Source: Malaciobacter molluscorum LMG 25693 (GTDB lineage: Bacteria > Campylobacterota > Campylobacteria > Campylobacterales > Arcobacteraceae). Taken from it: a stretch of 64,000 nt of DNA. The notes below the pieces were generated by a model. It was given only the letters and a program-made list of their open reading frames with translations. It was not told the DNA's origin and made no database searches. The DNA lies in contig NZ_CP032098.1 of assembly GCF_003544935.1 (NCBI RefSeq), positions 1,984,001-2,048,000 on the forward strand, read 5' to 3'. Both the position numbers and the translations under genes were made by a program. Each line of letters begins with the position of its first letter. The first letter of the stretch is position 1. Below, one piece after another: positions 2,273 to 26,054 of the stretch.

Positions 2273-3154
2273 CTAATCCTTTTTATCAAATCTAGTTCTA
2301 TATTCACATTTTTGGCATAGTTCTTCAACTATAATATTATTTTTAAATCCATTTTGAATATTTTTTACTCTTGTAGAATTTAATATTTCTGATATAGTCT
2401 GTTCTTTTACATTTCCCAGATTTATACATGCATTTTGATCTAAACAACAAGGAACTACGTCACCATTACTTAAAATACCAAAATGAGAATCTAATCCATA
2501 ACAAAAACCTTTTTTTGAAACAAAATTATTATTTAAATTTGGCCAATTAAAATATTCATCAAAATTAAAAAATATTTTTCTATCAACTCTTATATTCTTA
2601 GGTCTTATTTTATAAATATCTTCAATATCGATACTTGTATTAAACTCATTATTTATTTTATTAAATACTTTTTTATTAAATTCTTTTGCACTTTTTGTCT
2701 CATCCAAATTCCATATTCTTAAATTTATAAAATAATCATGTCTATTTTTTTGAGCAAATTTTATAAATTTAATAATCGGGTTTAAATATTCATCTAAATT
2801 CTTTTTATGAGAGTTAGCATTATAAGAATTAATTGAAAAATTTATTTGTTTAATTGTACTATTTAATAAAGCCTTATAATGTTTTTCATTTATATTATTA
2901 GCAGTTGTAGTGATATTTACTTTAAGATTATATTTCTTACTAATATTTAAATAATCATTTAAATTTGATAAAACTAAAGGATCTCCTACTATATGATAAG
3001 ACAACTCTTTTGTATAATTTTTTAATTGATTATTTAAATTATCAAACTTTTCTAAACTCATCGTTGTAGATGGTTTTATTTTAGGAGGACAAAATGTACA
3101 TTTTAAATTACAAATATTTGTTATTTCAATATGAACTTTTCTAAACTTTTTTAT
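2273..3154 (-). CDS. Radical SAM/SPASM-type protein with an apparent AUA start
   Basis: Read from 3154 this is 293 residues. The N-terminus holds the radical SAM iron-sulfur motif CNLKCTFC (C15, C19, C22), followed by a TIM-barrel-like middle and a Cys-rich SPASM-like tail (CYGLDSHFG, VVPCCLDQ, LCQKCEYR) that should hold further clusters. Such enzymes modify peptides, proteins or cofactors; the substrate is unknown. The first ATG in frame (3061) lies after the cluster motif, so a protein starting there would be dead. An in-frame stop stands at 3175-3173, and the only codon with a Shine-Dalgarno (AAAGG, 7-base gap) is ATA at 3154. A broken peptide gene lies upstream on the same strand behind a terminator, and the EI24 gene follows 3 bases on. 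Confidence 0.8.
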   Translation of the reverse strand: MKKFRKVHIEITNICNLKCTFCPPKIKPSTTMSLEKFDNLNNQLKNYTKELSYHIVGDPLVLSNLNDYLNISKKYNLKVNITTTANNINEKHYKALLNSTIKQINFSINSYNANSHKKNLDEYLNPIIKFIKFAQKNRHDYFINLRIWNLDETKSAKEFNKKVFNKINNEFNTSIDIEDIYKIRPKNIRVDRKIFFNFDEYFNWPNLNNNFVSKKGFCYGLDSHFGILSNGDVVPCCLDQNACINLGNVKEQTISEILNSTRVKNIQNGFKNNIIVEELCQKCEYRTRFDKKD

Positions 3155-3201
3155 AAATAGACCTTTATTTTTTTATGATTGTATCAAATAAAAACTAAAA
3201 C

Positions 3202-3236
3202 AAAAAACCCCTCCATAGTAAACTATGAAGGGGTTT
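3202..3236 (-). terminator. Rho-independent terminator after the small minus-strand unit
   Basis: A 15-bp stem (3205-3219 with 3222-3236, one mismatch, two-base loop) has the core ACCCC/GGGGT, and on the minus strand it runs into a T tract at 3207-3202. It faces transcription coming from about 3470, which is what the broken small gene needs. Confidence 0.75.
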
Positions 3237-3259
3237 AGGAAAATAAGTATATATAGTGT

Positions 3260-3437
3260 TTAACTGTAAGTTTGCTCTAAAGCACCTAAAGCTTGTGTAA
3301 AACTTTTCACAAAAGATTACATACATTTACCATAATAATGGTGGTGTTGGTTGTAAAAATTACAAACATCAACTACTATTTCAAATACCTTTTGTTACAG
3401 TAGTTTTACAAAAAGCTTCGTAACATTTATTATTCAA
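3260..3437 (-). pseudogene. Broken small Cys/His-rich ORF of about 58 codons with its own promoter, RBS and terminator
   Basis: A TTG at 3437 has a full AAGGAGG Shine-Dalgarno (3451-3445, 7-base gap) and opens 18 codons, NNKCYEAFCKTTVTKGI, ending in TGA at 3381. If one A is dropped from the AAAA run just before, the frame continues as VFEIVVDVCNFY, then NQHHHYYGKCM, meets one TAA at 3319, and goes on in the same frame with SFVKSFTQALGALEQTYS to a TAA at 3260. The span is 178 bases, one more than 59 codons. A terminator follows 24 bases later. I read this as a small gene with one frameshift and one nonsense codon; a functional 17-residue leader peptide, a non-coding RNA or sequencing errors remain possible. 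No homologue is recognised. Confidence 0.5.
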
Positions 3438-3472
3438 TATTACACCTCCTTGTAATCTTTAATTAGTAAAAT

Positions 3473-3478
3473 TTTATA
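3473..3478 (-). promoter_or_regulatory. -10 box for the small minus-strand unit
   Basis: TATAAA on the minus strand, inside AAAGTATAAAATTTTAC, lies 35 bases upstream of the TTG at 3437. Campylobacterota housekeeping promoters are recognised largely by the -10 box, so no -35 is expected. The rest of the stretch up to 3586 is AT-rich sequence in which I see nothing else on the plus strand except the GATATAAAT-like -10 and AAAAAGGATTTTA ribosome binding site of the next gene. Confidence 0.45.
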
Positions 3479-3586
3479 CTTTACTACATTAAAGAAAATA
3501 GTTACTTTTTAACTAGTTGAGAAAATTAAAGTTCAAAATTTATTTAGTTTTTTTTTGATATAAATTCATTCACAAAAAGGATTTTA

Positions 3587-4591
3587 ATGAAAAATTTTAT
3601 AAACAACATTCCAAAAGCAGAATTACACTTACATATTGAAGGAACATTAGAACCAGAATTAATGTTTAAATTAGCAAAAAGAAATAATATAAAACTTGAA
3701 TATAAAACAATAGATGAGATTAAAAATGCTTATAATTTTACCAATTTACAGTCTTTTTTAGATATTTATTATAGTGGAGCAAAAGTTTTGCAAACAGAAC
3801 AAGACTTTTATGATTTAACTTATGAATATTTGAAAAAATGTAAAGAAAATAATGTAATTCACACTGAAATTTTCTTTGACCCACAAACTCATACAGCAAG
3901 AAATATAGATTTTAAAACAGTAATTTTAGGAATAACTAAAGCACTTGAAGATGGAAAAAATGAATTAGCAATAAGTTCAAAATTAATCATGTGCTTTTTA
4001 AGACACTTAAGTCAAGAAGATGCTTTTAAAACTTTAGATGAAGCAATGAAATTTAAAGAAAAAATCATAGGAATTGGTCTTGATTCTTCAGAATTAGGAA
4101 ATCCTCCTGCAAAATTTAAAGATGTTTTCAAAAAAGCTAAAGAACTTGGATTTAAACTTGTGGCACATGCTGGGGAAGAAGGAAGTTATGAATATATAAA
4201 TGATGCACTTGATTTATTAAATATACATAGAATTGATCATGGTGTTCAGGCAATTAATAGTGATAAATTAATGCAAAGATTAAAAGATAAACAAATAGCA
4301 CTAACAGTTTGTCCACTATCAAATACAAAGCTAAAAGTCTTTGATGATATGAAAGAGCACAGTATAAAGCAAATGTTAGATTATGGATTAAATGTAACAG
4401 TTAATTCAGATGATCCCTCTTATTTTGGTGGATATATGAATGATAACTTTCATGCTATTACAAATAGTTTAAATTTAACAAAAGAAGATATTATAAAACT
4501 TGTAAAAAACTCTTTTAACTCTTCATTTATAACAAAAGAAGAAAAACAAAATTTCATTAAAAAAGTTGATGAGTTTATAAAAAACAATTAA
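3587..4591 (+). CDS. Adenine deaminase of the adenosine deaminase superfamily
   Basis: 334 residues. The zinc-binding HxH is in AELHLHIEG (H14, H16), with the catalytic VAHAGEEG and the zinc-binding SDDP further on. The form [11 protein letters not shown] and the stretches EQDFYDLT and FFDPQTH match the subfamily that deaminates the free base adenine to hypoxanthine (as in the Pseudomonas and yeast enzymes) rather than the adenosine-specific branch, so many pipelines would label it adenosine deaminase. It serves purine salvage. It has a strong AAAAAGGATTTTA site, stands alone, and converges on dgt with a hairpin between. Confidence 0.85.
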
Positions 4592-4613
4592 GAGGATTTT
4601 TCCTCTTAAATTG
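4585..4613. terminator. Hairpin between convergent adenine deaminase and dgt
   Basis: TTAAGAGGA and TCCTCTTAA form a perfect 9-bp stem around a TTTT loop, extendable by AATT on both sides. It covers both stop codons. T tracts are short on either side, so termination strength is uncertain. Confidence 0.5.
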
Positions 4614-6075
4614 CAGTTAATTTTCTATACTCATCTAAAGCAAAATCATCAGTCATTCCAGAAATATAATCAATTATTAATCTTGCTCTATAATACCACT
4701 CTAATAAATTAAATTTTTGTTTATCTTTTGTATCTAACTCTTCAATAGCTTTTGAATATGCAACAATATGTTTTGAAGATAATCTACCTATTAATCGTGC
4801 TGAAACAAAACAATCTATTCTTTGCTTTGATACAAGTTTTAAAAAATCTTCACTTGAAAGTTCTAAAATAGGTTTATAACAGTTTAATAAGCCATGTAAT
4901 ATTGCATGACCTTTTAACTCTAATGCTTGTTTTTCTTTATTATTATAAATATATTTGATTGATATATTTTGTAAAACTTCAATAGCAAGTGAATATTTAT
5001 TTGTTTTATCAAAATCTAAAATGGCTTTATTAAAAGTCCCATCAAATATCTCTTGATGATTATCCAAATATACTTGTGCAACATATTTTACTAAATGATT
5101 AATCAAGCTAGCTCTTGTTAAAGTCAAAAAAAGATTAAATTGATAAGGTTCATCTTCTTGCTCTTTAGCTTTTTTATAATATTTTTCAATTAGTTCTAAT
5201 AAAAAAGTCTCATGCTTATTATATTTTTGATTTACTTTATTACACTCTTTTACAACATATTTATATAAATCATCTAAAGTAAATACTCCTTTATCAACAG
5301 CATCTTCAATATCTGCTGTTAAATATGAAATATCGTCAGCTGCTTCCATAATATATGTAAGAGGAAATCTGCATCCCTTTTGCATTTGTAAAGATTTACA
5401 AACTTTTTTTACAAACTCTTTTTCAGAATAGTAAAATCCTGGTTTTTTCTTTAAATAGTTTAATTTATCACCATCTTTTGGTTTTTCTTCAAAAGCACCT
5501 CGTGTATATTTTAAAACAGAAGCAGTTTGAGAAAAAGATAAATTTAATCTTTGAAGATATTTTATTATTCTTATTGCTTGTGCATTACCATCAAAATTTG
5601 TAATATCTCTTATTAATTTTTCTTTTAAACTCTCATTTTCTTTTTTTATTTTAGGATATAATTTCTTTAAACAATCAACACCTTCATTTTTCATCCAATC
5701 ATTTATTGAAAGCTCTGCAAAGTGTCCAAAAGGAGGATTTCCAATATCATGAAGTAAACTTGACATTTCAGAGATTGAAACAAAAGCATTATCTAAATTA
5801 TTCAAATTATATTTTTCAAAATTACTGTGTTTTTTTATCTCATCTAAAATTGTTTTTGCTATATATCTGGCGTTTTGTTGTACTTCTATAGAATGCGTTA
5901 ATCTACTTCTTACAGCTGCATTTAATTCTAAAGGAAAAACTTGTGTTCTTTTTTGTAATCTTCTAAATGCAGGAGTTGAAATAATTCTTCCTCTATCACT
6001 TTCAACTGAAATATCAATATCATTTATTGGATAAACTTCTCTACTTGTATTTAATTTTTTTGTATAATCAATCAT
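4606..6075 (-). CDS. dgt: dGTPase, HD-domain triphosphohydrolase
   Basis: 489 residues. It carries the N-terminal signature RRLQKRTQVFPL and LTHSIEVQQNAR, then the HD-domain metal site SLLHDIGNPPFGH, and a later EAADDISYL that supplies the remaining Asp. This matches long-form bacterial dGTPases, which hydrolyse dGTP to deoxyguanosine and triphosphate and so tune dNTP pools and resist some phages. It is a single gene, convergent with adenine deaminase, both touching purine pools. The start ATG at 6075 lacks a strong Shine-Dalgarno but begins the conserved region. Confidence 0.88.
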   Translation of the reverse strand: MIDYTKKLNTSREVYPINDIDISVESDRGRIISTPAFRRLQKRTQVFPLELNAAVRSRLTHSIEVQQNARYIAKTILDEIKKHSNFEKYNLNNLDNAFVSISEMSSLLHDIGNPPFGHFAELSINDWMKNEGVDCLKKLYPKIKKENESLKEKLIRDITNFDGNAQAIRIIKYLQRLNLSFSQTASVLKYTRGAFEEKPKDGDKLNYLKKKPGFYYSEKEFVKKVCKSLQMQKGCRFPLTYIMEAADDISYLTADIEDAVDKGVFTLDDLYKYVVKECNKVNQKYNKHETFLLELIEKYYKKAKEQEDEPYQFNLFLTLTRASLINHLVKYVAQVYLDNHQEIFDGTFNKAILDFDKTNKYSLAIEVLQNISIKYIYNNKEKQALELKGHAILHGLLNCYKPILELSSEDFLKLVSKQRIDCFVSARLIGRLSSKHIVAYSKAIEELDTKDKQKFNLLEWYYRARLIIDYISGMTDDFALDEYRKLTAI

Positions 6076-6156
6076 AATAAAATTCTTTTTTTGTTTTTAA
6101 AACAAATTATAACTTATTTGCAGTTATAATTGCATTTTGAAAAAAAGGAATAATTA

Positions 6157-6480
6157 ATGGAAATGCTTTTAAATGAGTACGATATGGTAGTTGGTGCTAA
6201 ATTTGATAATGGCACAATTCAAGATTATGTAGATGATAAAAATACTTATGGTCTTGTAAGAATAGAAGACTCAACTGCAAATTGGTTTTTATACAATGAA
6301 ATAGATAGTGATAATGAATCAAAAAAACTATATAAAGACGTTACGCAAAAAGAGCATTTTATACATGATGAATTTGGTGAAAAAATAGTTCTTTTTAACA
6401 AAGTGGGGAAAGTCTCATTTGAAGATTTTATAAAAAAAATCAATGAATATATTGATGATGGATTAGGACAAATAATATAA
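6157..6480 (+). CDS. Small acidic protein of unknown function
   Basis: 107 residues, rich in Asp and Glu, with no membrane segment or Cys. I do not recognise the family. The sequence alternates predicted strands and helices (GTIQDYVDDKNTYGLVRIED early, FEDFIKKINEYIDDGLGQI at the end), suggesting a small globular cytoplasmic protein. It has an AAAAAAGGAATAATT ribosome site, sits divergent from dgt across an 81-bp gap with TATAAT-like boxes, and ends in a good terminator. Real by codon use and signals; function open. Confidence 0.75.
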   Translation: MEMLLNEYDMVVGAKFDNGTIQDYVDDKNTYGLVRIEDSTANWFLYNEIDSDNESKKLYKDVTQKEHFIHDEFGEKIVLFNKVGKVSFEDFIKKINEYIDDGLGQII

Positions 6481-20791: not shown

Positions 20792-20909
20792 AAGCTGGCA
20801 GAGACCTACGTTTCCACACCTGAAAGGTGCAGTATTATCAGCGCTGAAGTGCTTGACTTCCAGGTTCGGAATGGAGCTGGGTATTTCCACTTCGCTTTTT
20901 CCACCAGCA
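20792..20909 (-). rRNA. rrf: 5S ribosomal RNA
   Basis: About 117 bases, bounded by the complementary ends GCTGGTGG and GCTGGCAG-like termini, with the conserved CCGAACCTGGAAGT and GAAACGTAGGT segments. Last gene of the operon before the terminator. Ends are accurate to a few bases. Confidence 0.9.
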
Positions 20910-21049
20910 ATATGAGTATACAATGAACTTATCATTCACTCTATACTCACATTCTTATGAGCTCTTTTATATTAAAGTCTTTTTCTTCTTTCAATAACTA
21001 ACACAACTACTTAGTAAACTTAATAAGATAGTAAACCAAGTTAATTAAT

Positions 21050-23957
<2,908 letters not shown>

Positions 23958-24240
23958 TTTAAGTTAGCCTAAAAAAATCTTACGATTTCTCCAGGGTACC
24001 TTTTATAAAACAATATCTCTATTATTTTACCTTGATAATTATTCCTTGGCTACTATCTTATTAAATTTAATAAAATAGTTGTGTTCTTTCTTTTTATCTT
24101 TGAAATTGTTATTTCTTAGAAAAATTTAGACTTTAACATTATATTTTTAAATAACTTGATTACTCTTGTAATCTTTTGGTTTTTTTTGAAACCAAATATA
24201 AATCTTACTTTTTTTAAGACTTATATTTAGTTTCTTCAAA

Positions 24241-24316
24241 TGGTGGAGATAAGCGGGATCGAACCGCTGACCTCCTGCGTGCAAGGCAGGCGCTCTCCCA
24301 GCTGAGCTATATCCCC
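24241..24316 (-). tRNA. tRNA-Ala (anticodon TGC)
   Basis: 76 bases with encoded CCA. Acceptor GGGGATA, D-arm AGCTCAGCTGGGAGAGC, anticodon loop CTTGCAC giving TGC, and T-loop GTTCGATCC. In the 16S-23S spacer. Confidence 0.97.
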
Positions 24317-24370
24317 ATTTGTATTTCTTATTTGGTATTCTTCTAATCTTTAAAGATTATTCAATCTTCA

Positions 24371-24447
24371 TGGTGGGCCTACCAGGACTTGAACCTGGGA
24401 CCTCACGATTATCAGTCGAGCGCTCTAGCCAGCTGAGCTATAGGCCC
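24371..24447 (-). tRNA. tRNA-Ile (anticodon GAT)
   Basis: 77 bases with encoded CCA. Acceptor GGGCCTA, D-arm AGCTCAGCTGGCTAGAGC, anticodon loop CTGATAA giving GAT, T-loop GTTCAAGTC. First tRNA of the spacer after 16S. Confidence 0.97.
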
Positions 24448-24537
24448 ATTCACCTATTGTTATCAAATAATCTTTATAAACTGAATATCCTAGATCTTTT
24501 TGCTAGATAAGAATCGAATCTTATCTAGTCTTCTCTG

Positions 24538-26054
<1,517 letters not shown>

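Follow-up and report, generated by a model that had tools for sequence, protein, structure and literature searches.

Evidence from genome comparison for a genus-wide structured RNA carrying a short reading frame in Malaciobacter

Dual-function small RNAs such as Spot 42 with its 15-amino-acid SpfP, SgrS/SgrT and VcdRP are stand-alone terminated transcripts in which a good ribosome-binding site precedes a very short ORF; they have known mRNA targets, mostly use Hfq and encode a functional peptide. The AapA type I toxin mRNAs of Helicobacter pylori are short Campylobacterota mRNAs that have a closing helix and in which the Shine-Dalgarno sequence may be masked, features also predicted for the RNA described here. 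In uORF and leader-peptide attenuators, including TrpL and LeuL, a short ORF lies over alternative helices with a terminator downstream; the structured uORF motifs ilvB and fthC display this anatomy (PMC11109978). In Campylobacter jejuni both short ORFs on small RNAs and leader peptides are known (PMC11955535), and a survey of Arcobacter sp. L reports rare structured intergenic RNAs that are confined to the genus and unnamed (PMC6429828).

The locus studied here lies in a stretch of 64,000 nucleotides (the window, to which all positions refer) from the 2.8 Mb genome of Malaciobacter molluscorum LMG 25693. A sequence-only reading had interpreted it as a small transcription unit with a broken 58-codon Cys/His-rich frame and had listed a recent pseudogene, a frameshifted gene, a short leader peptide or an RNA as explanations. 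After comparison with relatives, what looked like a pseudogene is read as a structured RNA of the Arcobacteraceae, present throughout the genus and apparently not described before; it is ordinary in kind and apparently new as an instance. For Malaciobacter we found few small RNAs described in the literature. We consider it highly probable that the locus specifies a conserved structured RNA rather than a broken gene.

The nearest working analogy would be the dual-function small RNAs, with which the locus shares a predicted stand-alone terminated RNA, a very short ORF and a good ribosome-binding site. Unlike in those systems, the peptide drifts and Hfq (PF17209) is not found in any of the six Malaciobacter genomes, so that any pairing with mRNA is probably Hfq-independent. 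The arrangement of short ORF, alternative helices and terminator resembles the attenuators, but the next gene has its own promoter-like site and a family-wide range without the RNA. Unlike the AapA mRNAs, no conserved antisense partner is seen. The RNAs of the Arcobacter sp. L survey (PMC6429828) are likewise structured, intergenic and confined to one arcobacter lineage, but that survey concerns another species and the present locus is not found outside Malaciobacter.

The transcription unit and its distribution

On the minus strand a -10 element, AAGGAGG, a TTG codon, an 18-codon frame to TGA, about 145 nt without a common open frame and a terminator follow one another (Table 1). The small transcription unit proposed from the letters is partly confirmed, its predicted -10 element, AAGGAGG, TTG and 14-pair terminator being present as sequence signals. 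TACAAT is found at the same position as the -10 element in the relatives G001, G002 and G003 (alignment A1), and transcription would start at about 3464-3461. In the pair counts from six genomes, three pairs of the terminator stem have changes on both sides. Two terminator-type sites are found in the region, compared with 0.3 expected.

Table 1. Features of the RNA locus and of the adjacent gene, in window coordinates. All are on the minus strand.
Feature	Position	Sequence or partner	Basis
Structured small RNA, about 250-260 nt, 6/6 genus genomes	3205-3464		Same-locus DNA homologues, covariance model, pair counts
Probable -10 element of the RNA's own promoter	3478-3471	TATAAAAT	Sequence and alignment A1
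Shine-Dalgarno sequence, invariant, partly paired in P1	3451-3445	AAGGAGG	Alignment
Start codon of short ORF	3437-3435	TTG	Sequence
Short ORF, TTG to TGA, 18 codons	3381-3437	Peptide MNNKCYEAFCKTTVTKGI	Alignment and ORF comparison
Closing helix P1, 5' arm	3441-3447	AGGUGUA, pairs with 3251-3245	92.9% of cells paired, changes one-sided only
P1, 3' arm	3245-3251	UAUACUU	Pair counts
P2, 5' arm, within short ORF	3404-3418	AAGCUUUUUGUAAAA, pairs with 3302-3289	96.1% paired, one two-sided pair
P2, 3' arm	3289-3302		Pair counts
P3 (or pseudoknot), 5' arm	3387-3395	ACAAAAGGU, pairs with 3317-3309	100% paired in six, two two-sided pairs
P3, 3' arm	3309-3317	AUCUUUUGU	Pair counts
Hairpin H2	3371-3405	AACUACUGU..CAAA[AGGUA]UUUG..AUAGUAGUU	Manual alignment: three two-sided pairs
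Hairpin H3	3346-3373	GUUGAUG..CAACCAAC	97.6% paired, one two-sided change
Hairpin H4	3329-3342	ACCAUUAUUAUGGU	100% paired, one two-sided change
Hairpin H5	3273-3284	UGCUUUAGAGCA	100% paired, invariant
Intrinsic terminator	3236-3205	14 pairs, then T run	Terminator scan and pair counts
Promoter-like site of radical SAM gene, 3' of terminator	3178-3188	TTTGATACAAT	Alignment and other-genus loci
Radical SAM/SPASM protein gene, neighbour outside the RNA	2273-3154		Neighbour-gene analysis

The genus set comprises six genomes, including Malaciobacter halophilus DSM 18005 and Arcobacter sp. CECT 8985, within a family set of 104 Arcobacteraceae genomes (six Malaciobacter and 98 others). A DNA homologue search finds the locus at the same place in all six, with 72-92% identity in the five relatives. 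The covariance model R1 scores 204-266 bits in each of them and has no credible match in the 98 other Arcobacteraceae genomes. The locus was not found in the other Campylobacterales sampled either, and nothing matched in the plasmid, phage and viral collections. Judged from these searches, the RNA is best read as restricted to Malaciobacter. Its identity to the M. molluscorum sequence is 0.71-0.94, compared with 0.50-0.83 at the fourfold sites of the flanking genes. The RNA exceeds fourfold-site conservation in nearly all comparisons, the exception being a 13-site fragment of ada in G001, which gives a tie (0.77 versus 0.76).

Several weaker candidates were rejected. DNA matches from other genera (L008-L012) either fall within protein-coding regions or resemble the locus no further than a short match. 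A model match of 21 bits (L063) is antisense within a protein gene and is regarded as chance, and a lone pattern match in Flavobacterium (L020) has no covariance-model match.

The order radical SAM gene, RNA, ada (adenosine deaminase gene), dgt (dGTPase gene) and a gene for a 107-amino-acid protein (6157-6480) is the same in all six genomes, that of G001 being cut by a contig end. In most loci of other genera that were read, the 107-amino-acid gene is the divergent neighbour of the radical SAM gene. This adjacency suggests that the RNA-ada-dgt block (3205-6100) was inserted in the Malaciobacter lineage. The radical SAM gene is present in 93 of the 104 Arcobacteraceae genomes and outside Malaciobacter it occurs without the RNA. 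Directly 5' of it, TTTGATACAAT or a close variant is found with and without the RNA, other genera included, which argues against both a simple attenuator and the suggestion that the enzyme modifies a peptide from this locus. No relative has an intact 58-codon precursor ORF beside the enzyme, and the enzyme of other genera lacks this locus; the modified-peptide link is not supported.

For the radical SAM gene the apparent start codon is non-standard, ATA or ATT, at 3154-3152 on the minus strand. In 29 of 29 readable loci, from several genera, one of these two codons stands in first position with AAGG a few nucleotides before it, and no ATG, GTG or TTG is found there. A conserved AUA or AUU start, as in infC, would be unusual.

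Fold of the RNA

The nested helices P1, P2, P3, H3, H4, H5 and the terminator were proposed by RNAalifold from the six sequences, and pairs were counted on a sequence-only MAFFT alignment of the six genomes. Across the 55 pairs of the model, 97.9% of cells are paired, eight pairs are changed on both sides and the covariation score is 0.215. None of 500 shuffles reaches the paired fraction, the two-sided count or the covariation score. When the partners are slid by 1-3 columns, pairing falls to 38-49% and two-sided pairs to 0-1, an excess that is partly built in because the structure came from the same sequences. More weight falls on the shuffles and the two-sided changes. With only six genomes, some of them closely related, the counts overstate the number of independent changes. 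Without the terminator, folding-energy z scores are only moderately low (-0.96 to -3.15). The conserved, covarying fold strongly supports the option of an RNA that had been named among the explanations.

The hairpin H2 was counted on a hand-made alignment with one gap moved, and its three two-sided pairs are additional to the eight. Its span includes the last part of the short ORF together with the stop codon, and its 5' bases are those used by P3. As two-sided changes occur in both, P3 and H2 both seem to be kept; they would be either alternative folds, or a hairpin whose loop pairs downstream in a pseudoknot. The H5 stem is longer in G001, G002 and G003. An alternative closing helix (columns 4-11 with 145-152) has no two-sided changes.

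The short reading frame

The short ORF has 17-20 codons in the relatives and is preceded by AAGGAGG and started by TTG in all six genomes, with a spacing of 5 or 7 nt between the two. The relatives' peptides are MNDNYYEAFCKTTVTKGI, MKYNNYEAVCKTKSKGI, MKQIIRRAFCNETKGLKGI, MQKQLNKEAFCKKTRGLKGI and MTDNITEAFCDNAKGLKDI. Within the ORF every length difference is a multiple of three, which is not so outside it. All ORFs of at least ten codons on both strands of the six genomes were compared; this is the sole one with a stop column common to at least four genomes, and its stop is common to all six. Under random changes the frame would have stayed open in the five relatives with chances of 0.73, 0.55, 0.29, 0.27 and 0.28, the product being about 0.01; this value excludes the condition on indels, uses change numbers entered by eye (counted values are close) and is weaker than it appears because ancestry is shared.

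Codon changes in the ORF amount to 0-2 synonymous and 3-11 nonsynonymous per pair of genomes. The conserved peptide residues, AFC and KGI, coincide with the paired RNA segments P2 and P3, and the ORF could therefore be a by-product of RNA conservation. Since most changes alter the amino acid and AFC and KGI lie in helices, it seems to be the frame and not the peptide that is kept. For the short leader peptide that had been considered, the conserved ORF of 17-20 codons gives partial support.

The 58 residues reconstructed earlier are the TTG frame joined to another frame by dropping one base and reading through one more stop. The TGA at 3383-3381, which had been attributed to a frameshift, does not vary among the six genomes, and the Cys/His-rich continuation (QKVFEIVVDVC..HHHYYGKCM) belongs to a different frame from the TTG ORF. 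In the closest relative considered here, G005 (92% identical), this frame reads ..HHH*YGKGM*, with a further stop inside, and in G004, G001, G003 and G002 stops or shifts occur at other places. Indels downstream of the TGA are not multiples of three. An intact 58-codon ORF is found in none of the five Malaciobacter relatives, one of the two findings that the sequence-only reading had said would refute it. The extra base and the TAA can be read in the letters of this one genome, from which the peptide can indeed be rebuilt, but the rebuilt Cys/His-rich frame is open in no relative. Because all relatives carry the same 'defects' and a non-coding pattern of substitutions, the pseudogene and frameshifted-gene readings are rejected, and a recently broken gene for a 58-residue peptide is extremely improbable. 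A conserved short ORF inside a structured RNA can mimic a frameshifted gene when a single genome is read.

Possible role and alternative explanations

We propose that the locus would yield a small RNA of about 250 nt that stands alone and ends at its intrinsic terminator. It would fold into the closing helix P1, the long P2, P3 or a pseudoknot competing with H2, the hairpins H3 to H5 and the terminator, with the short ORF in its 5' third over the 5' arms of P2, P3 and H2. Ribosomes would translate this ORF, and a ribosome on it or ending at the UGA would open P2, P3 and H2. Since the peptide drifts while the frame is kept, the act of translation may matter more than its product. On this view the molecule would be regulatory, its fold reporting on translation or responding to it, and would act without dependence on adjacent genes. 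Comparison of the six sequences shows the shared predicted fold and, with less force, the short ORF. The RNA is probably a regulatory RNA of a fairly ordinary kind, and translation of the ORF probably remodels its fold. As a whole, with translation given its role, the proposal is tentative, and we consider it slightly more apt to fail than to hold. If translation of the ORF does control the fold, the locus would provide a tractable ribosome-regulated small RNA that needs no peptide. A stronger form, in which the ORF is kept translatable irrespective of its peptide and the ribosome toggles between the P2/P3 and H2 folds, switching a trans-acting activity of a free-standing RNA, is doubtful.

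The RNA may instead be entirely non-coding, with RNA pairing or protein binding as the reason why AAGGAGG and UGA are kept, and with the open frame a coincidence. The nearly exclusively nonsynonymous changes in the ORF agree with this, as do the location of its conserved parts in the 5' arms of P2 and P3 and the pairing of part of AAGGAGGU in P1. However, in all six genomes a perfect Shine-Dalgarno sequence precedes TTG by 5-7 nt despite a 2 nt change in spacing, the multiple-of-three rule holds inside the ORF and not outside it, and no second ORF has a common stop. We regard a plain non-coding RNA as unlikely, though it is the least unlikely of the alternatives. If translation does take place, its product could be what matters, the transcript being a structured, translation-inhibited mRNA for a functional protein of 17-20 residues, possibly a type I toxin like AapA. 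The ideal ribosome-binding site and the conserved frame suit such an mRNA, and P1 and a possible hairpin between AAGGAGG and CUUUUUGUAA could restrain its translation. Yet in the six genomes the peptide is neither hydrophobic nor conserved outside the paired RNA segments, no sequence-conserved short hydrophobic or amphipathic toxin is found and ORFs on the antisense strand are not common to the genomes. The hairpin over AAGGAGG (columns 7-16 with 48-57) has no two-sided changes and is mismatched in G003 and G004. We regard a small-protein mRNA as improbable.

An attenuator would make the short ORF a leader peptide that, through terminator read-through, governs both the radical SAM gene and a CysZ-like gene that follows it. 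The genes are on the same strand, RNA and radical SAM gene are adjacent in six of six genomes, and the succession of short ORF, overlapping alternative helices, terminator and gene is that of the ilvB and fthC attenuators (PMC11109978). Against this stand the conserved promoter-like site of the radical SAM gene 3' of the terminator, found also in genera without the RNA, and the occurrence of that gene throughout the family, while the RNA is confined to one genus. Moreover, a helix scan brought out no helix of a terminator arm with two-sided changes other than the terminator itself, that is, no covarying antiterminator, and the ORF contains no run of regulatory codons. Control of the radical SAM gene in this manner is quite unlikely, and a regulatory RNA independent of its neighbours remains our preferred reading.

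No Rfam family matches near 3200-3480 at its gathering score. PyrR (32.4 bits, gathering score 54) and His_leader (25.2 bits, gathering score 49) are permissive matches that are helped by the terminator and not common to the relatives. The locus is not 6S RNA (RF00013), for which the genome's only candidate is elsewhere (G000:C1:1503481-1503656). At 38.2 bits this candidate falls short of the Rfam gathering score (46.4), and standard annotation may therefore miss it.

In the search for targets, the most conserved unpaired stretch of the RNA, ACACUAUAUAUAC, has no convincing antisense match, the matches being near chance level. A 20 nt sequence, GTATATATAGTGTTGAATTT, is identical in L093 and L097 (around position 1501), where it is intergenic beside an rraA-like gene. 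It has 13 nt in common with the complement of the RNA's conserved 3' stretch, and this match has the same sense as the RNA with respect to the rraA-like gene. Elsewhere in the window, a complete rRNA operon (16S, two tRNAs, 23S and 5S) is located at 20793-26054 on the minus strand.
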